Below are positions 1,328-22,404 of a stretch of 51,161 bases of DNA, piece by piece. The notes beneath the pieces are model-generated. The model was not told where the DNA came from. It was given only the letters and a program-made list of their open reading frames with translations, and searched no databases. Origin of the DNA: an uncultured Bacteroidota bacterium (GTDB lineage Bacteria > Bacteroidota > Bacteroidia > Chitinophagales > Chitinophagaceae). Each line of letters begins with the position of its first letter. The stretch's first letter is position 1. The stretch covers positions 1-51,161 of the forward strand of contig CAILLK010000074.1 in the NCBI GenBank assembly GCA_903835005.1. Reading direction: 5' to 3'. The translations under genes and the position numbers were made by a program.

Positions 1328-2377
1328 TCAACTCTCCTCATCAAAATATATCTTATAAAAACTCTTCCCCAGCTTCGCATCAAACCCCTTCTCAATGAGG
1401 CTCTTATCGCCATGTATATAAACATGAAAGTTCTTATCCAGCTTCAGCACGCTCTTAAACACCCTCGCCTGTTTCTTCACAGCGCTGTTGCTTATCTCAA
1501 AATTATCCTCCAGCTCCACACCTGTATCCTGCACATATTCCTCCTTATACTTCGTAAATGATTTGATCACCTCCTTGTCTTCAAATACCATCTCCAAAAA
1601 GCTGTCCTCTTCAAAAGCAGCATTCTTTTTAAAGTACTCCACGGTCTTATTAAGGTAGCTTATCTTGTCTGTTTTGTTCACCTCATACTCCTGTTCCAGT
1701 TGGTTGGTCACAAAGTTTTTGCACGCATCCAGGTAGTGCTGCGTAGCATGGTAGTTGTCGTTCGATGGTGTTATTTTCAGGAATTCATTTTTCCAGTACA
1801 TCGCCTCCTCGCCACGGCTCACGGCATCTACCACAGCCACCACATAGCCACCCTCTTTATTGGTATTCAGTATCAGACAGCCCTTATCCAGTTTGTTGAT
1901 GTTCACCCCTTCCTCAATCGCCAGCAGATAATCGCTGCCATCAAACTCCGGCTTCAGAAAAGTATCCCTGTTCTCCGACTTAAAAATCCCAATCGCATCC
2001 AGCTCCACCCCATCCAGCAGGCAGTTCTTAAAATAAGCCACATACAGTTCCCCGTTCTTTATCTTAGGGTGAGATGAAGATTCATACAGCAGCTTCCCTA
2101 TCTCCTTCGACTCCTTCACAAACCCCTTCGGCCCGCCAAAAATATTCCGTGCCACCGTATATATCTCATTCAGCTCAATGTTGGTCACATGCGAGAAATT
2201 GTACAGCGGCACCTCCACAAACGACTTCAGGAAATAATCCGTAAGCACCTTCGCCAGGTCCGGCTGATGCTGCAAATCTATCGGCTGGTCCGACAACTTA
2301 TACCCCTCATCCAGCGACTTATTCCCTACCCTGTGGACGATAATTTTATTCAAATTGATTTTTAGAAATTCGAGCAT
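1328..2377 (-). CDS. Nucleoid-associated protein, NA37/YejK family
   Basis: A 349-residue protein matching the 37-kDa nucleoid-associated protein family (NA37, E. coli YejK/NdpA). The first half carries the family pattern (start MLEFLKINLNKIIVHRVGNK, then SHVTNIELNEIY and IFG). The middle holds the conserved stretch KIKNGELYVAYFKNC followed by DAIGIFKSE. The C-terminal half is charged and Lys-rich and ends KSFYKIYFDEES. In E. coli the protein is found with the nucleoid; its exact role is unclear. The length is normal for Bacteroidota members. The gene stands alone. Its first ~115 bp plus upstream leader are duplicated at 2922-3101, separated from the gene by two tandem 244-bp repeats. Confidence 0.85.
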   Translation of the reverse strand: MLEFLKINLNKIIVHRVGNKSLDEGYKLSDQPIDLQHQPDLAKVLTDYFLKSFVEVPLYNFSHVTNIELNEIYTVARNIFGGPKGFVKESKEIGKLLYESSSHPKIKNGELYVAYFKNCLLDGVELDAIGIFKSENRDTFLKPEFDGSDYLLAIEEGVNINKLDKGCLILNTNKEGGYVVAVVDAVSRGEEAMYWKNEFLKITPSNDNYHATQHYLDACKNFVTNQLEQEYEVNKTDKISYLNKTVEYFKKNAAFEEDSFLEMVFEDKEVIKSFTKYKEEYVQDTGVELEDNFEISNSAVKKQARVFKSVLKLDKNFHVYIHGDKSLIEKGFDAKLGKSFYKIYFDEES

Positions 2378-2432
2378 GACTATTGAAATTTATATCAGGT
2401 ACTTTCTTGCGTGAAGGTAAATTGCTTCTGGC

Positions 2433-2920
2433 AATTATTATATTTTACACTCGTCTTTCCACAGGCGATAGCAAGACCTAATATCTCCCTCTCTTTAGGA
2501 GAGCAATGCCACTAACTTAGAAGAAAAATTGATCGAAGTGATGAAGCTAAATCAATGATCCGAACGTATTCCCCCTTTAGCGTTAGCCATCGTGCGGGAG
2601 CGAAGGGGGTTGGGGGGATGTTTTAAAGATGCTTAAGTTAGTGCCTTTAATAAGGAGAGGGCCGGGGTGAGGTCTCAATTATTATATTTTACACCAGTTT
2701 TTTCTCTGGCGATAGCCAGACGTAATATCTCCCTCTCTATAGGAGAGCAATGCCACTAACTTAGAAGAAAAATTGATCGAAGTATTGAAGCTAAATCAAT
2801 GATCCGAACGTATTCCCCCTTTAGCGTTAGCCATCGTGCGGGAGCGAAGGGGGTTGGGGGGATGTTTTTAAGACGCTTAATTTAGTGCCATTTATAAGGA
2901 GAGGGCCGGGGTGAGGCCTC
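2433..2920. repeat. Two tandem 244-bp direct repeats (MITE-like)
   Basis: Copies lie at 2433-2676 and 2677-2920, both beginning AATTATTATATTTTACAC and ending GAGGGCCGGGGTGAGG. Inside each, a block of about 140 bp is bounded by inverted repeats (GCCACTAACTTA at 2508, TAAGTTAGTGCC at 2634 in copy 1). That block splits an outer hairpin of the CCCTCTC...GGAGAGGG type, so each unit looks like one small palindromic element nested in another. The units carry no gene. They differ at a small number of positions, so the tandem duplication is not brand new. Confidence 0.8.
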
Positions 2921-2921
2921 C

Positions 2922-3035
2922 GGCCGATACTGCAAATCCATCGGCTGGTCCGACAACTTATACCCCTCCCAGCGACTTATTCCCCACCCTGTGGACGATA
3001 ATTTTATTCAAATTGATTTTTAGAAATTCGAGCAT
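2922..3035 (-). pseudogene. Duplicated 5' fragment of the NA37 gene
   Basis: This stretch is a near copy of 2263-2377, the first ~37 codons of the nucleoid-associated protein gene, including its ATG (complement of 3033-3035). Homology continues through the upstream leader to about 3101 (copy of 2378-2440, ending in CAATTATTAT). A 2-nt deletion relative to the intact gene (CCCCTCATCCAG versus CCCCTCCCAG) shifts the frame, so the fragment codes for nothing useful. It joins the end of the second tandem repeat at GAGGCCTCCGGCCGA. It is a 5'-end duplication, not a second full gene. Confidence 0.85.
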
Positions 3036-3207
3036 GATGGTTTAGATTGACTCTTAAGGTATTGATTGCGTGAAGGTAAATTGCTTGCTGCAATTATTAT
3101 CTTCACAAAGAAAACTAAATTGCAGCATCTGGATGTTGCATAGAAACCCAACAGGCTCAAATATAGATAGCTGCTGGTGAAACCCCAAACTCTAACTTAA
3201 TCATTAT

Positions 3208-3296
3208 GATAGCTCTGAAAGAGCGAAATATAATAGCCGGGGGTAACGCCCCCGGTACCATATATAACGACCATAAGCCCTGCAAGGGCGAAATAC
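3208..3296. repeat. Dispersed intergenic repeat, copy 1
   Basis: The order is GATAGCTCTGAAAGAGCGAA, then a GCCGGGGG/CCCCCGG palindrome, then GCCCTGCAAGGGCGAAA. A related copy lies at 30786-30872. This class of short palindromic repeat (CTGAAAGAGCGAAA... CCGGGGGTAACGCCCCCGG) is common between genes in Bacteroidota. It runs directly into the open frame of the toxin relic at 3346-3609. Confidence 0.65.
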
Positions 3297-3345
3297 TGCG
3301 GGCGACATTCTTAATGACATTGAGTGGAATCCAATCCCTGGTAAA

Positions 3346-3609
3346 AAAGTAAGGTGTGTATCATTTCTCCCTGCTGGATTTAAAGACTACGTAGAATGGT
3401 CTTCGGGAAATAAAGAAATGTTTGAAAAAATAAACGAACTGATCAAAGAAATTCAAAGAGACCCGTTCAAAGGTAAAGGCAAACCGGAACCATTAAAAGG
3501 AAATAATAAAGGTAGCTGGAGCCGGCGGTTAACTCTGGAACATCGTTTGGTTTACTCAGTAACTAATGATTCGGTTACTATTATTACCTGCCACGGACAT
3601 TATGAATAA
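3346..3609 (+). pseudogene. YoeB/Txe-family toxin, start region lost
   Basis: Residues encoded from 3346 (KVRCVSFLPAGFKDYVEW...) through the stop at 3607-3609 cover essentially a whole YoeB-like mRNA interferase. Family hallmarks are present: INELIKEIQRDPF, GKPEPLKGN, WSRRLTLEHRLVYSV and ITCHGHYE. YoeB proteins are about 84 residues and begin MK(V/I)SF. Here no ATG, GTG or TTG is available in frame upstream; the frame is open back to 3277 but runs into the dispersed repeat. The first in-frame ATG (3418) would give only 63 residues and drop the N-terminal strand. No antitoxin gene is recognisable upstream. It is best read as a decayed toxin; translation from a non-standard start or from ATG 3418 remains possible. 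Confidence 0.7.
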
Positions 3610-9665: not shown

Positions 9666-9736
9666 TCTGCTCAATAAGATTTTAACTTTTAAAAAGCAGA
9701 AATCTAAACTCAGTAATCAAAATATTTTTCAGGCCC

Positions 9737-9768
9737 GATGCAAGTAATTGTATCCTGTTTTTTATTTT
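9737..9768 (+). terminator. Hairpin plus T-run, left copy of a 32-bp direct repeat
   Basis: The stem is GATGCAA / TTGTATC with loop GTAA, followed by CTGTTTTTTATTTT. It is identical to 10297-10328 at 31 of 32 positions, exactly 560 bp apart, and brackets the antitoxin/toxin pair between them. The form is that of an intrinsic terminator. Confidence 0.55.
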
Positions 9769-9778
9769 GCAATATGGT

Positions 9779-9786
9779 TATCTTTG
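9779..9786 (+). promoter_or_regulatory. Putative -7 element of the DUF2683-like antitoxin gene
   Basis: TATCTTTG matches the Bacteroidota -7 consensus TAnnTTTG and lies 35 nt before ATG 9821. No TTG is found at the ideal 19-nt distance upstream, so the -33 element is unclear. Confidence 0.4.
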
Positions 9787-9820
9787 TTTTAATAATTTCA
9801 ATTTAAAAAAGACTAAAGAA

Positions 9821-10018
9821 ATGGAAGCATTGATCCTAAAGCCGGCAAACAAGGAAGAAGCAACATTGCTAAAAAACATGGTCAGGAATATGAAGGTAAA
9901 GTATGCTGTGATCAATGATGAAGATAAAGAGGATTATGCAATGGCCCGGGCTTTACTTGCGACAAAAAACAGCAAGCCAGTTTCGAAAGAAACAATAATG
10001 AGAAAATTAAAGAGTTGA
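9821..10018 (+). CDS. DUF2683-like antitoxin
   Basis: A 65-residue protein MEALILKPANKEEATLLKNM... ending VSKETIMRKLKS. The start MEAL(I/V)LKP...EE..LLK.M...MK and the end VS.ETIM.KL fit the small DUF2683-type proteins encoded upstream of RelE/ParE-like toxins in Bacteroidota. ATG 9821 follows AAAGAA and a TATCTTTG promoter element; the longer frame from TTG 9767 would begin inside the terminator-like repeat and is rejected. Its stop overlaps the toxin start as ATGA (10016-10020). The toxin is frameshifted, so the antitoxin may persist as an orphan. Confidence 0.7.
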   Translation: MEALILKPANKEEATLLKNMVRNMKVKYAVINDEDKEDYAMARALLATKNSKPVSKETIMRKLKS

Positions 10019-10283
10019 TGGAACTTGAATATCATAATAGTTTCAGTAAATATATTGATAAGATTAAAGATAAACGCATAAAAAATGAGTGCCTGGAATT
10101 GATTGAAAAAATAGGTGCGCTTGGCTCCTTAAGCGAACTCCCTGATGTGAAAAAACTAAAAGGCTTTCAATACTCTACAGGATAAAAATGGGTGATTACA
10201 AGATTGGAATTGAATACAGAAAATCGAAAGTAATTTTTAAACGGTTTTTATTGAGGAAGGATATTTATAAATATTTCCCCTGA
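10018..10283 (+). pseudogene. RelE/ParE-like toxin, frameshifted
   Basis: Frame 1 from ATG 10018 encodes MELEYHNSFSKYIDKIKD... up to ...VKKLKGFQYSTG and stops at TAA 10183-10185. The next frame, from about 10177, continues with RIKMGDYKIGIEYRKSKV and KRFLLRKDIYKYFP and stops at 10281-10283. Joined, the two halves give an ordinary ~88-residue RelE-superfamily toxin (…LKG…Y.YRIKMGDYRIGI…F..R…IY..FP). One base is lost or gained near 10170-10180 (TACTCTACAGGATAAAAATG). Overlap with the antitoxin stop shows the pair was an operon. As read here, the toxin is inactive. Confidence 0.75.
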
Positions 10284-10296
10284 TTTTTTTGAGCAG

Positions 10297-10328
10297 GATG
10301 CAAGTAATTGTGTCCTGTTTTTTATTTT
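10297..10328 (+). terminator. Hairpin plus T-run, right copy of a 32-bp direct repeat
   Basis: The stem is GGATGCAA / TTGTGTCC (two G-U pairs) with loop GTAA, followed by TGTTTTTTATTTT. It lies 14 bp behind the toxin pseudogene stop, as expected of an intrinsic terminator, and only 7 bp before ATG 10335 of the next gene. Confidence 0.6.
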
Positions 10329-11654: not shown

Positions 11655-13769
11655 TCAATTCACCATAACCCAGGTAAACCCGAACCGCAGCATAAGATCG
11701 GGTGCAGTATAAACGGGTATAGCTGACGTACCTGAACCATAATAATTTAGTACGGGTGAGCCCGTATAGAGTATGGTATTGCTGGTAAAAAGCTGCTGAA
11801 TGTTATCTGCCATAACAAAGGCACGGAACCTGGAAATACGGAAATTGAGGAACACCGACTCTTCGGGGTAATTTTCTACATAGGTGGAGTTCTGGTAAAA
11901 GAACTTATTGAGCAGGGCATCATAGCCTGCGGCATGATAAGCGGTATTGTAGCGCAGCTCTATACCGGTGGCTATTTTCAGCCTTCTTTTGAATAAGGCT
12001 ATCTCATAACTCAGCTGGTGGCGGCCCATGAGGGCCGGAACATTTACCGGTGCATTCTGTGGCATCTGCTGGTATACCAGCTCATTGTCGAGGAATACAT
12101 TACCCATCTTAAATACTTTTCGCAGCCACCCCTGGGTGATGGTAAAAGGTATGGTATACTGTGCGGGTTTTTCAATGTCGTTGATGTAGATGTAGTTACC
12201 TATTAGGTAATTTTTAACCCCTGCCGAGAACCGGAATTTTGGAATGTCGAGAGTGGCATAGAGCGTAGTTACACTTTCATTGCTGAAATTGTAAAACTGC
12301 TTTATGTAGTTATTTTCCAGGTTGGTATAGCTATAAGGCGCGCTGTTGATGGCCTGCCTGAAACCGACCAAAAAGCTGCCCAGGTTGTTCTTCAGTTGCT
12401 TCCCCAGACTGGCATCCAGTATAAAATTGCCGGCATCATTTCCCGAAAAAAAGAATTTTGCATTGGCATCATATTGCCAGGCGCCCGGAGTGAGGGCTTC
12501 TTTTTTGATTTCGGCTACAGCATAGTTGCTCAGCACGCTGCTGCGGTCGAGGCCGGTGCTATAGTATAGTTTTGGCAGGCTGTCCTTGATTACGTTATTT
12601 ACAGGGGCAGATATAAACTCATCATACCGGTTGCCCAGGCCTGCACTTACTTCGCTCTGGTGGCCCGCCCGGCCTATAAAGCCATTCAGCAGCACTTTGT
12701 TATCTATCCAGAACCACTTTTGTTGGGCGTATACAGAATCTTCTCCCGCCACATAGGATCCAGTGCCCAGATTGCCGAAATTGTTACTAAAGGAAGAGCT
12801 GTATCTTAATGAGTCGGGGTTAAGATCCTTATAGGCATGCATTTCGGTACTCAGTTCCATTTTGTGGGTAATGCTGATCCGGGGTATGAGCTTGTGGGTA
12901 AATGAGGTAGAGTCTGAATTGTAGGTGGTGTCATAACTGCCCCATCGGTAGCTGTGTTGTATCAGCATGGTAAAATCGCGCTGCACATTAGTAATTGCCG
13001 AGCGGGTGTTGTTGGCGCTGTACAGATCGTTCTGGTAGGCTACATCTACTGTTTTGCGGTCGGTATAGCTGGAACCCGGTACTAATTCGCTGTCATTTAC
13101 AATGCCGCCGTTTTCGTCGTGCTGAATCTTGTTGTACACCATTGCTGCTTTAAACACATAGTGTTTATCTAGGCTCAGGTAATTGGTTGAGAAACCGGCT
13201 ATATCGTGGTTATTGCGCTGTATTTTGAATTCTCCGGGCGAGTTGATTTTGCGGTAATCTACCATAAAGTTCCAGTTGGGCCTTATGTTCTGGCTGTGCA
13301 TAATACTGGCAGTCTGCTCCAGTTTGCTGCCCAGCTGGTAAGAGAATATGGAATAAGGCCTGTTAGTACTGTAATAATTGAGGCTGTCCACATTCATCCG
13401 GTAAACATCATTGATATGATAACCCAATGAGGGTCCTACGCGGTCTACGGGGGTGAACATCAGGTTGTTGACCGGGCTGCCCAGGTTGCCCATATCGCGG
13501 TACCAGGGCTGGGTAAACGGATTTCGCTGAAATGTGTGGAGGCTGCTGTCGGGGGTATATATCTTAGCCGAATTCAGTTTTTCCCAGGTTATTTTAGCAT
13601 CTTCATCCTTCCATTTGGTGGTGTTTGTTTTGTTCATGGTTGTATCCTTATTGGTAGTTGCCGGTGTGGTGCCGGCGGTGCCAACCTGGGCGAACGCCTG
13701 CCAGCCTGTGATAACAAAGCCAAGCAACAGCAAATACTTCCGGAAACGGATACTTCGGATATATATCAA
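11655..13769 (-). CDS. Putative porin (Porin_10-type outer membrane protein)
   Basis: A 704-residue outer membrane protein. A signal peptide (KYLLLLGFVITGWQAFAQ) is followed by a Thr-rich stretch of about 25 residues. The rest reads as a long beta-barrel with alternating hydrophobic residues, including NPFTQPWYRDMGNLGSP and HSQNIRPNWNFMVDYRKINS, typical of the Bacteroidota putative porin family (Porin_10). The C-terminus ends APDLMLRFGFTWVMVN, with the terminal aromatic/hydrophobic strand expected of a barrel. The start is TTG 13769 as no ATG precedes the signal peptide in frame; it may lie slightly upstream. Substrate unknown. Monocistronic, surrounded by TA loci. Confidence 0.8.
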   Translation of the reverse strand: MIYIRSIRFRKYLLLLGFVITGWQAFAQVGTAGTTPATTNKDTTMNKTNTTKWKDEDAKITWEKLNSAKIYTPDSSLHTFQRNPFTQPWYRDMGNLGSPVNNLMFTPVDRVGPSLGYHINDVYRMNVDSLNYYSTNRPYSIFSYQLGSKLEQTASIMHSQNIRPNWNFMVDYRKINSPGEFKIQRNNHDIAGFSTNYLSLDKHYVFKAAMVYNKIQHDENGGIVNDSELVPGSSYTDRKTVDVAYQNDLYSANNTRSAITNVQRDFTMLIQHSYRWGSYDTTYNSDSTSFTHKLIPRISITHKMELSTEMHAYKDLNPDSLRYSSSFSNNFGNLGTGSYVAGEDSVYAQQKWFWIDNKVLLNGFIGRAGHQSEVSAGLGNRYDEFISAPVNNVIKDSLPKLYYSTGLDRSSVLSNYAVAEIKKEALTPGAWQYDANAKFFFSGNDAGNFILDASLGKQLKNNLGSFLVGFRQAINSAPYSYTNLENNYIKQFYNFSNESVTTLYATLDIPKFRFSAGVKNYLIGNYIYINDIEKPAQYTIPFTITQGWLRKVFKMGNVFLDNELVYQQMPQNAPVNVPALMGRHQLSYEIALFKRRLKIATGIELRYNTAYHAAGYDALLNKFFYQNSTYVENYPEESVFLNFRISRFRAFVMADNIQQLFTSNTILYTGSPVLNYYGSGTSAIPVYTAPDLMLRFGFTWVMVN

Positions 13770-13959
13770 TTGATAAATGCTTTTCAGGGCGCCGATTGAA
13801 AAACGCCGTTGGGCAAAGATAATTGTGTTAATTGTAACAAGGATTTAAAAGTTTAGGGGTTTGATTCATAGCTTTTGCCATAGAGGTTCCGTTCTGGTAA
13901 ATACCCTTACTTTTATTAATTAATTTTAGTTATGAATCATAATGCATAAATTTATGCAT

Positions 13960-14166
13960 ATGAATTTGCAGGCTGAAAAATTTGAATTGATAAAGTTGCT
14001 CGCAGAGGTGGTGGTATCATCACTGCGATTGCAGCCTCACCGGGACCTGCCAGTGTCTCGGACGAAAATGCAAAAAAAATACCATGATTCGCTGGTTGCC
14101 GGGAAATTACTGCTTATAGTGCAGGGAAGCGAAGGAGATAAACAAGGCAATGGATATACTGCATGA
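13960..14166 (+). pseudogene. Degenerate antitoxin-like gene
   Basis: The ORF starts MNLQAEKFELIKLLAEV, which matches the common N-terminus of small Bacteroidota antitoxins (M.LQAEK.ELI..L). After about 20 residues the pattern is lost, and other frames carry more protein-like stretches, including EAKEINKAMDILHEYG around 14128-14175. This suggests at least one frameshift. The region 14167-14260 has no intact gene. Confidence 0.4.
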
Positions 14167-14287
14167 ATATGGTACCTATACTGAGATTGCGGTGCATTAG
14201 TGGGCAGTAGAGTTTATTGATCTGTATAGGTCAGGCAGTTTCTCAATTTCCCTAATTCACCTATCTTTACCCGAAACAAATGCTGCC

Positions 14288-14404
14288 ATGGCTTTATTTT
14301 CACAATTGGGTAATTACCGCAACTTCGGGCTACTTGTTATGCGGGCAGGGGTAGGGGTTATGATGTTTCTGCACGGGCTGCCAAAACTTATAGTGGGGCA
14401 ATAA
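14288..14404 (+). pseudogene. Truncated duplicate of the doxX gene
   Basis: The first 33 codons from ATG 14288 are a near copy of the doxX gene at 14964: MALFSQLGNYRNFGLLVMRA... through GLPKL. The frame then runs into unrelated DNA and stops at TAA 14402-14404, after 38 residues. About eight base differences separate the copies over ~110 bp, and most are third-position synonymous changes. The ~35-bp upstream region including TATCTTTAC is also similar. The 3' break is at about 14390, directly before the HicBA module. Confidence 0.85.
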
Positions 14405-14421
14405 ATATTTAAATAAATCCG

Positions 14422-14429
14422 TAATTTTG
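14422..14429 (+). promoter_or_regulatory. Putative -7 element of the hicBA operon
   Basis: TAATTTTG matches TAnnTTTG and lies 15 nt before ATG 14445. Because the in-frame TTG at 14427 falls inside this element, ATG 14445 is preferred as the hicB start. No TTG lies at the ideal -33 distance. Confidence 0.45.
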
Positions 14430-14444
14430 GTAAAAAAGATCAGT

Positions 14445-14648
14445 ATGGAAGAGTTGATTTTTTTAGTAGAAGAAAGTGAGGATGGGGGATATATAGCTAA
14501 ATGTCTCGGTGTTTCGATTTTTACAGAAGCCGATAGCATGGAAGAATTAAGGAATGCTGTAAAAGAGGCAGTTCATTGTCATTTCTTCGATAATAAGCCG
14601 CGTCTTATCCGTCTCCATGTAGTTAAAGAAGAGGTATTTGCTGCATGA
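14445..14648 (+). CDS. hicB: HicB-family antitoxin (HicBA module 1)
   Basis: A 67-residue partial-RNase-H-fold antitoxin: MEELIFLVEESEDGGYIAKCLG ... IFTEADSMEELRNAVKEAVHCHF. The pattern F..EE...GGY.A..LG...T..ds.EEL....KEAV is the HicB core; the protein lacks the long C-terminal DNA-binding domain seen in larger HicBs. It overlaps hicA by 4 nt (ATGA at 14645-14648) in antitoxin-first order. It neutralises the HicA RNase. The pair lies between a truncated and an intact copy of doxX. Confidence 0.82.
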   Translation: MEELIFLVEESEDGGYIAKCLGVSIFTEADSMEELRNAVKEAVHCHFFDNKPRLIRLHVVKEEVFAA

Positions 14649-14887
14649 AATTACCCAGGGATATTACCGGCCAGGAACTCATAAAGTCATTAAAGCCATT
14701 AGGCTATAAAGTAGTAAGACAAGTGGGAAGCCATATACGGTTAACGACCTTGCAAAATGGCGAACACCATATCACTGTGCCAGATCATGATCCTGTAAGG
14801 CCTGGTACTCTTTCAGGAATATTAGGAGACATAGCTGATCATTTTAACAAGAGCAAAGAAGAGATTTTATATCTTCTTTGGGGATAA
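14645..14887 (+). CDS. hicA: HicA toxin (HicBA module 1)
   Basis: An 80-residue dsRBD-fold mRNA interferase: ITGQELIKSLKPLGYKVVRQ, GSHIRLTT and HHITVPDHDPVRPGTLSGIL. The catalytic His lies in the GSH(I/H)R motif and the H...VP.H..(L/V)..GTL..I block is diagnostic. Length is normal. ATG 14645 overlaps the hicB stop. The full-length doxX promoter region starts about 40 bp after its stop. Confidence 0.88.
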   Translation: MKLPRDITGQELIKSLKPLGYKVVRQVGSHIRLTTLQNGEHHITVPDHDPVRPGTLSGILGDIADHFNKSKEEILYLLWG

Positions 14888-14963
14888 TATGATATTTCAG
14901 GGTTGGTGTTTCTGATTTCCAATTCCACCAATTCAACTATCTTTACCTCAATAAAAATCTGCC

Positions 14964-15371
14964 ATGGCTTTATTTTCACAATTAGGTAATTACCGCAACT
15001 TCGGGCTGCTTGTTATGCGGGCTGGACTGGGAGTAATGATGTTTCTGCACGGGCTGCCAAAACTGACCGGTGGCATACCCAAATGGGAGGCGCTGGGGCA
15101 GAACATGGGGCACCTGCACATTCATTTCTTGCCAGTTATGTGGGGGTTTATGAGCGCTATTACCGAAACGATAGGAGGGATATTTTGTGTGTTGGGTCTG
15201 TGGTTCCGGCTGGTGTCAATTCTTATGGTGGTCAATTTTATTGTTGCCATTGCAACACTATTTGCAATGGGTAAGGGTATTACAGAATCATCGGAGGCTA
15301 TAGAAATGCTGTTTGTATTTTTCGGTTTTATTTTCCTTGGGGCAGGTTCATTATCTATCGATAAGAGTTAA
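14964..15371 (+). CDS. DoxX family membrane protein
   Basis: A 135-residue protein with four hydrophobic segments. Family marks are GLLVMRAGLGVMMFLHGLPKL, a GHLHI block and ITETIGGIFCVLGLWFRL. DoxX-family proteins are small inner-membrane proteins, loosely linked to thiosulfate/quinone or redox functions; no specific role can be assigned. Its first ~110 bp and its upstream region (TATCTTTAC) recur at 14250-14390 in front of HicBA. The intact copy has its own promoter-like TATCTTTA at 14939-14946. Confidence 0.88.
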   Translation: MALFSQLGNYRNFGLLVMRAGLGVMMFLHGLPKLTGGIPKWEALGQNMGHLHIHFLPVMWGFMSAITETIGGIFCVLGLWFRLVSILMVVNFIVAIATLFAMGKGITESSEAIEMLFVFFGFIFLGAGSLSIDKS

Positions 15372-15429
15372 AAAAATTATAAGCCGGTTACTGAGTTTAT
15401 TTTCATTGTATCTTTAGCAAAATTTAAAC

Positions 15430-15921
15430 ATGAAGAAGATCATATTTTTATTGTTATTACTGCCCTTATTCAGTAATGCCCAGACCGATAAGAAAGAGGA
15501 TGAAAACAAAGAAAGCGATGGCGTTCTAACTCTTGTACATGCCGATAAAACTGTAGCAGTACCTGCTGCACCAAAGGAAGGTAAAAAGAAACAAAAAGAT
15601 AATACAAAGTACTTAGGTATGGTACAATTTAAGATAGGCAACAACCAGATTACCTGCGACAGCGCTATAATATTTGAAAATGACGACCTGGTGGAAGCTT
15701 ATAATGTAACTATTACCAATCCGATCTATTTTACTACCAGAGGCGACCAGCTCAATTATAATAAAGAAACCAAAAGAGGCAATGTAACCAAGAACGTAAA
15801 TATCACTGCGCTTAACGGCAATGTAGTGGGCAGCTCTGAAAATGTAGAAGTGGATATGAGCCGCGAAGCGTACCGCATTGGTATGGGAAGTATTAATCCG
15901 CCGGGAGGGGGGAAGCAGTAG
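15430..15921 (+). CDS. OstA/LptA-like periplasmic protein
   Basis: A 163-residue secreted protein with signal peptide MKKIIFLLLLLPLFSNAQ. A Lys/Glu-rich linker (about 20-60) leads into an OstA-like beta-jellyroll domain: YLGMVQFKIGNNQITCDSA, then VEAYNVTIT, TTRGDQLNYNKETKRGNVT and VVGSSENVEVDM. The C(D)S(A)..Y.....a.G.v....G..l.Y....k.a...g.V pattern is the LptA/OstA_2 repeat, seen in proteins of the LPS transport bridge. Bacteroidota carry short OstA_2 proteins like this. Monocistronic; the next gene is an ABC permease 174 bp downstream. Confidence 0.8.
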   Translation: MKKIIFLLLLLPLFSNAQTDKKEDENKESDGVLTLVHADKTVAVPAAPKEGKKKQKDNTKYLGMVQFKIGNNQITCDSAIIFENDDLVEAYNVTITNPIYFTTRGDQLNYNKETKRGNVTKNVNITALNGNVVGSSENVEVDMSREAYRIGMGSINPPGGGKQ

Positions 15922-22146: not shown

Positions 22147-22404
22147 GTGAGCAGAATTGAAAAATTGCTGGATCGGTTACTTTCTAACCCCAAGGATTTT
22201 ACCTGGGATGAATTAGTTAATCTTTTAGCTCATTACGGTTATTATGAACATGGTAAAGGAAAAACCGGTGGCTCAAGAAGAAAGTTTGTGGGTGCGGATA
22301 AAAAAATTATCAGCTTGCATAAACCTCATCCTGGCAATGTTCTGAAAACTTATTTAATCAAAGAGATCATTGATCACTTAAAACGGAATGAAAAGATATC
22401 ATGA
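22147..22404 (+). CDS. hicA: HicA toxin (HicAB module 2)
   Basis: An 85-residue HicA-family mRNA interferase: FTWDELVNLLAHYGYYEHGK, GGSRRKFVGADKKIISLHKPHP and LKTYLIKEIIDHLKR. The conserved G.SRR.F (in place of GSH(I/H)R) and H.PHP blocks mark the subfamily in which HicB is the larger partner. The start is GTG 22147. It overlaps hicB by 4 nt (22401-22404), in toxin-first order, the reverse of module 1 at 14.4 kb. Confidence 0.85.
   Translation: MSRIEKLLDRLLSNPKDFTWDELVNLLAHYGYYEHGKGKTGGSRRKFVGADKKIISLHKPHPGNVLKTYLIKEIIDHLKRNEKIS

Follow-up and report, generated by a model that had tools for sequence, protein, structure and literature searches.

Insertion with long target duplication was reportedly found for restriction-modification genes by Nobusato et al. 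(2000) and Furuta et al. (2010), with Helicobacter pylori named as a host. Insertion sequences such as IS1634 of Mycoplasma also make long, variable direct repeats from their target, but IS1634 encodes a transposase, and none is present between the doxX repeats. In the parts of the published accounts used here, insertion with long target duplication is described for restriction-modification genes (PMC3874152, PMC1643837, PMC3031569, PMC2749054, PMC4978471): the insert holds no known mobile element, is bracketed by direct repeats of target DNA of variable length in the order of 100 bp, and carries an addictive cargo. The doxX locus of the present study shares these properties. It differs in that the cargo is a 0.5-kb HicBA toxin-antitoxin pair of Bacteroidia and not a restriction-modification system, and in that many repeats of this kind span a gene boundary and many diverge in the manner of alleles. 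The initial annotation had not known the arrangement as a described system; judged from its sequence, the doxX locus appears to be a variant of the described one, the features compared agreeing except for the cargo and the empty site at doxX being compared on one side only.

Two further systems are related in part. In Microcystis aeruginosa, a ParDE-like pair is flanked by 152-bp repeats (PMC7935541) and is, as here, a type II toxin-antitoxin pair between direct repeats. Those repeats are identical and contain an internal inverted repeat, unlike the repeats here, and in the parts of that paper used they are not described as duplicated target. In Streptococcus pneumoniae, as far as the sections used describe it, transformation makes merodiploids in which an essential gene stays intact beside an altered copy (PMC3784515). 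Incoming DNA creates a duplication that spares the gene, as is proposed below, but the duplications span about 100-900 kb and arise via existing repeats, compared with about 100 bp here. The part used of a review states that toxin-antitoxin pairs are highly mobile and that it is not yet understood how they become fixed (PMC2654758). No report of insertion with long target duplication for toxin-antitoxin pairs was found among the literature matches listed, which were mostly at title and abstract level and included few subscription papers.

The window, i.e. the whole stretch of 51,161 nucleotides that was analysed, carries the features compiled in Table 1. In a repeat search of the window, a single long direct repeat of 145 nt with 88% identity and a spacing of 676 was found around hicBA, as the initial annotation had noticed by describing hicBA as bracketed by a truncated and an intact doxX start. 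A later search widened the two copies to 14239-14388 and 14916-15064.

Table 1. Positions of the features at the doxX locus, counted in the window
Feature	Position	Strand	Remark
Left flank	13942-14199	+	small ORF 13942-14166 plus stretch 14061-14199; the stretch recurs in other genomes
Repeat copy 1	14244-14388	+	first 33 doxX codons, preceded by about 45 bp
Truncated doxX ORF in copy 1	14288-14404	+	38 codons; DoxX start, then stop soon past the repeat
Spacer, copy 1 to shared cassette	14389-14405		17 bp; hicBA homology of relatives starts at about 14406
Shared cassette (promoter, hicB, hicA)	14406-14888	+	matched at other sites in genomes G027, G003, G033 and G031
-7-like promoter element TAATTTTG	14422-14429	+	from sequence
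hicB, predicted antitoxin	14445-14648	+	from position and from homologues adjoining other hicA genes
hicA, predicted mRNA-interferase toxin	14645-14887	+	Pfam HicA_toxin PF07927, E 7e-12, 45.7 bits, cut-off 27
Spacer, hicA stop to copy 2	14888-14919		32 bp
Repeat copy 2	14920-15064	+	promoter region plus start of intact doxX
Intact doxX	14964-15371	+	Pfam DoxX, E 9e-13

The genes hicB and hicA overlap by four bases and are the only larger plus-strand ORFs between the doxX repeats; no transposase gene was found there. The HicB partner matched no Pfam, NCBIfam or PADLOC model and gave a weak PDB match (2yzt, E 0.06). The element TAATTTTG fits the motif TAnnTTTG, which we take to be the -7 element of Bacteroidetes, and comparable elements were seen by eye in several other cassettes. 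Relatives of hicBA at other sites in the genus match about 14406-14888 only, i.e. the promoter and the two genes. A search of the window's own genome with the doxX-hicBA region gave no second copy, and no RNA family reached its gathering score in 13700-15500. To the left of copy 1, the ORF at 13942-14166 had no Pfam match, and partial matches to 14061-14199 were found in six genomes (G018, G032, G027, G019, G024, G031), with another one elsewhere in G000. Read by eye, this left flank resembles the remains of a small mobile gene, which may have been an older antitoxin. A second HicA-like gene of the window is located at 22150-22377; no flanking repeats were detected around it.

About 45 bp of the doxX repeat lie upstream of the start codon. 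In the 99 coding bases, the two copies differ at eight positions, seven of them third codon positions; six codons are changed synonymously and one is not. This agrees with the initial annotation, which had called the differences mostly synonymous and had taken the truncated copy for a gene that was once functional. The latter was right in spirit, since the copy descends from a functional doxX start. The doxX flanks scored 109, and when left flanks were paired with right flanks from different loci, only 3 of 22,802 such pairs reached a score of at least 40; the doxX repeat is far beyond chance. A mosaic 5' end of doxX was also considered and set aside: the window and G027 are 91% identical over the first 102 bases and 76-82% thereafter, which fits a donor allele and is not decisive.

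The survey was extended to further HicA subfamilies and to relatives within the order, and then to other families of the class. The initial annotation had described the arrangement at doxX. It is not confined to that gene: fragments of many different genes surround HicA loci elsewhere. HicA pairs were found between 135-bp repeats (95% identity) at the start of dnaE in G031 (locus L008), between 109-bp repeats (86%) at the start of prfA in the window's own genome, and between 69-bp repeats at the end of proS. The end of an AHSA1 gene forms repeats of 35-39 bp in three genomes, including that of the window (39 bp), and one of these repeats is 100% identical. Repeats of 59 bp were found at the end of an enoyl-CoA hydratase gene (G018), of 95 bp at the start of a rhodanese gene, and of 35 bp in G222, where they consist of a terminator-like hairpin recognized by eye. 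In other families of the class, HicA repeats occur at the end of asnS, at the start of dut and at a DUF2200-like gene (named by eye). Pfam confirmed dnaE, prfA, proS, asnS, dut, AHSA1, enoyl-CoA hydratase and rhodanese. Several of the repeat-bearing host genes are essential in other bacteria. The repeat content differs from site to site and consists of pieces of host DNA; at the scored HicA loci the repeats are 35-191 bp long and their copies differ by up to 28%. At each site with a Pfam-confirmed gene, the host gene is continuous in one copy, which for the dnaE, proS and hydratase genes was followed as far as the edge of the stretch fetched.

Three of the surveyed loci carry additional features. 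At L008, a gene resembling a REP-type tyrosine transposase (named by eye) is located at 2476-3147, about 360 bp upstream of the dnaE repeat. At L354 (G708), a tyrosine recombinase-like gene (by eye) at 2167-3003 starts in the right repeat copy, and this locus may be an ordinary site-specific recombinase insertion. At L195 (G032), 211-bp repeats with 97% identity surround two toxin-antitoxin pairs, hicBA and one that is RelE/ParE-like (by eye); they are located where a surface-protein-like gene ends (1793-3352 in the reverse-complement count).

Flanking repeats were detected at 27 of 218 HicA loci compared with 25 of 847 control points (Fisher 2e-7), and repeats close against the pair at 18 and 7, respectively (Fisher 3e-8); the control points are 400 bases apart and not independent, and window points near 3400 and 10000, which lie near two other toxin-antitoxin-like genes, are omitted. 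After removal of overlapping duplicates, the genus and order set held 153 HicA loci, of which 150 were scored, three being too near a contig end. The class set held 69 loci from a longer match list (68 usable). In both sets the loci are a sample of the HicA matches. A flank match score of at least 28 was reached at 15 of the 150 loci versus 25 of 22,802 mismatched flank pairs, and at 12 of the 68 class loci versus 4 of 4,556 mismatched pairs. A first control compared the 15 of 150 with 11 of 386 points away from the surveyed toxin-antitoxin genes, the positives of this control including the window points 9800, which flanks another toxin-antitoxin-like pair, and 2600. The other control positives examined were mostly tandem paralogues or internal repeats.

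Among the 27 positives, at least three (L061, L140 and L169) seem to have repeats of a different type, the repeat of L155 resembles a dispersed repeat, L354 may be the recombinase site mentioned above, L063, L143 and L147 represent one shared insertion site, and L110, L361, L374, L389 and L392 have an unnamed host gene. L195 is outside the scored flank length and is absent from the 27. Seven in eight HicA loci (191 of 218) were without such flanking repeats; either old repeats have decayed there or other routes of arrival are common. For ParE, 4 of 70 loci scored at least 28; mismatched pairs reached this score in 20 of 4,830 cases and control points in 25 of 847. Of the four, L211 is located in an array of dispersed repeats and L247 starts right at the gene, so that no general enrichment is claimed for ParE.

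Repeats also accompany other toxin-antitoxin-like genes. At 9725-10328 of the window, 44-bp direct repeats (86%) surround a small pair that consists of a weakly DUF2683-like ORF (9815-10015, below the family cut-off) and a short, prematurely ending ORF that begins at 10018 and is perhaps a decayed toxin. At 2259-3609, the start of a gene for an NA37 nucleoid-associated protein (1328-2377, minus strand) is repeated at 2919-3103; a 244-nt unit occurs twice in tandem between the two copies, and a YoeB toxin gene (3418-3609) lies alongside. At L233 (G009, 1898-2845), a ParDE-like pair is flanked by 90-bp repeats (92%), each made up of the last part of an hflX-like GTPase gene and the region upstream of the gene that follows.

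The ends of the insert were analyzed in ten well-resolved cases. The inserts span 442-576 bp, and repeat copy 2 starts from 38 bases before to 117 bases after the stop in the frame of hicA. The cassette ends at the hicA stop or earlier at several sites, and its ends vary by locus. At the AHSA1 insertions L063, L143 and L147, the last codons and the stop of hicA are supplied by repeat copy 2, i.e. the duplicated AHSA1 end; at L088, the hicA gene is interrupted. In 10 of 11 cassettes, the inverted repeats at the two ends did not exceed the 95% level of shuffled sequences, and L063 exceeded it by one point. Terminal inverted repeats and a fixed short target duplication, the marks of a classical transposon or MITE, are both absent in view of this count and of the range of repeat lengths. 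Phages and plasmids were considered as vehicles and rejected. Among 50,697 phage records, none matched HicA at an E limit of 1e-5, and no match was confirmed in viral contigs. Two HicA matches were found on plasmids, both cyanobacterial (NC_010480.1 and NZ_AP014816.1, 61% and 54% identity), one of them beside a MazEF-like pair.

Empty sites were compared in relatives. At the AHSA1 site, G000, G027 and G018 carry hicBA and two repeat copies; G026 and G017 have one repeat copy with both neighbours in place. In G026, the end of the AHSA1 match and the start of the next-gene match share the same 32 bases, and in G017 this boundary overlap is 34 bases. The AHSA1 C-terminus MEDFILIIDKS, or a close variant of it, was found in genomes without the insert, and the AHSA1 repeat is therefore host DNA. 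G023, G019 and G033 carry hicBA at this site with only one detectable repeat copy. For prfA, the 29 loci of relatives have one upstream copy, one of them with a further weak 36-base piece; the right side is in place there, but the 500 bases to the left of copy 1 match none of these 29 loci. At doxX, the initial annotation had asked whether relatives carry tandem genes; their loci show one doxX each, no tandem pair is needed, and the closest are without hicBA in the surrounding 12 kb. In G027 and G026, which are the closest, doxX and the porin gene that is its left neighbour in the window are on different contigs; the comparison of the empty site at doxX therefore covers the right side and the repeat. 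No donor with hicBA beside doxX was seen.

From these results, we consider it probable that the 0.5-kb promoter-hicB-hicA cassette arrived at doxX by a transposase-free insertion that duplicated its target, i.e. by insertion with long target duplication, and that it was kept by addiction. Incoming DNA of a related strain would have joined the target at two offset points, by homology at one side and by an illegitimate join at the other, and the short overlap would have been kept twice (homology-facilitated illegitimate recombination). In a gene-dense genome, both neighbours would survive only where the overlap spans a gene boundary, and this would account for the many repeats that are starts or ends of genes. 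The variable insert ends, the missing inverted repeats and the spread of repeat lengths suggest chance joins filtered by function and not a recombinase, L354 being a possible exception. Such repeats would favour loss of the insert, and at doxX recombination between the two copies could plausibly remove hicBA, as the initial annotation had suggested. HicA would penalise cells that lose the insert while the unstable HicB decays, and an otherwise unstable structure would be kept; retention by addiction is what we infer from the known behaviour of toxin-antitoxin pairs.

The divergence of the repeats bears on the origin of the second copy. Third codon positions account for 71 of 111 differences over 13 coding repeats (binomial p 4e-11 versus one third), a count that includes L195 and leaves out the prfA repeat (indels) and the hflX repeat (misaligned). 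The bias is uneven, with 48 of 58 differences at third positions in seven repeats and 23 of 53 in six, a split made post hoc. The AHSA1 remnant was read as HicA codons, and selection on HicA may cause its bias. In many cases the two copies resemble different alleles of a functional gene, and mostly synonymous differences favour an incoming fragment with a related neighbour gene over a freely decaying remnant. An equal third-position pattern would result if the intact copy had been exchanged with relatives at a later time.

Among the other explanations, a staggered cut with fill-in, as in transposition, survives best, although we rate it as unlikely. The copies would have been identical at birth and the remnant would decay freely; the cassette would have been moved by a transposase acting in trans, perhaps one making long variable repeats. 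The duplication with single-copy empty sites fits this explanation, as do the fully identical AHSA1 repeat and the several remnants with little codon bias. It accords poorly with the shuffled-level inverted repeats in 10 of 11 cassettes, with repeat lengths and cassette ends that vary by locus, and with the third-position bias at seven coding repeats.

An older tandem doxX pair, between which hicBA landed while deleting the end of the first gene, is improbable. The truncated copy does look selected, with five of its six changes at third positions when G027 and G026 are used as outgroups (our reading of the alignment). However, the relatives have single doxX genes, the repeat ends near the cassette, and one would have to assume an identical coincidence at each of dnaE, prfA, proS, asnS and dut. 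Slightly less probable still is that the 38-codon truncated doxX start is under selection as a small membrane peptide or leader and that the repeats are maintained in this way; its open frame, the stop soon after the repeat and the mostly synonymous differences would suit such a peptide, but the gene-end remnants of enoyl-CoA hydratase and proS show the same bias, and the prfA remnant has indels. An assembly artefact is the most remote of the explanations: the genus genomes are drafts, many of them metagenome-assembled and some in hundreds of contigs, but the doxX and dnaE repeats are located inside contigs of 51 and 178 kb, the copies differ by up to the 28% given above, the AHSA1 insertion is common to three genomes, and the 4-contig genome G927 also has such loci.

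With insertion by long target duplication as the preferred reading, a known insertion mode is now seen for toxin-antitoxin pairs in Bacteroidia, with gene-sparing joins. In a broader view, which we hold tentatively and for which the case is nearly balanced, toxin-antitoxin pairs might act as gene movers across the Bacteroidia: 0.5-kb cassettes would insert without a transposase even at dnaE or prfA, would duplicate the gene end so that the host gene survives, and would carry their own excision repeats, the toxin punishing excision and HicA sometimes being completed by host codons, as at AHSA1. The movement of chromosomal toxin-antitoxin pairs without a nearby mobile element is poorly understood. 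If the proposed mechanism is true, the route of insertion could be read from the sequence and roughly dated by repeat divergence, excision should be frequent once the toxin is dead, and toxin-antitoxin pairs and restriction-modification genes would be addictive cassettes with a common insertion mode.
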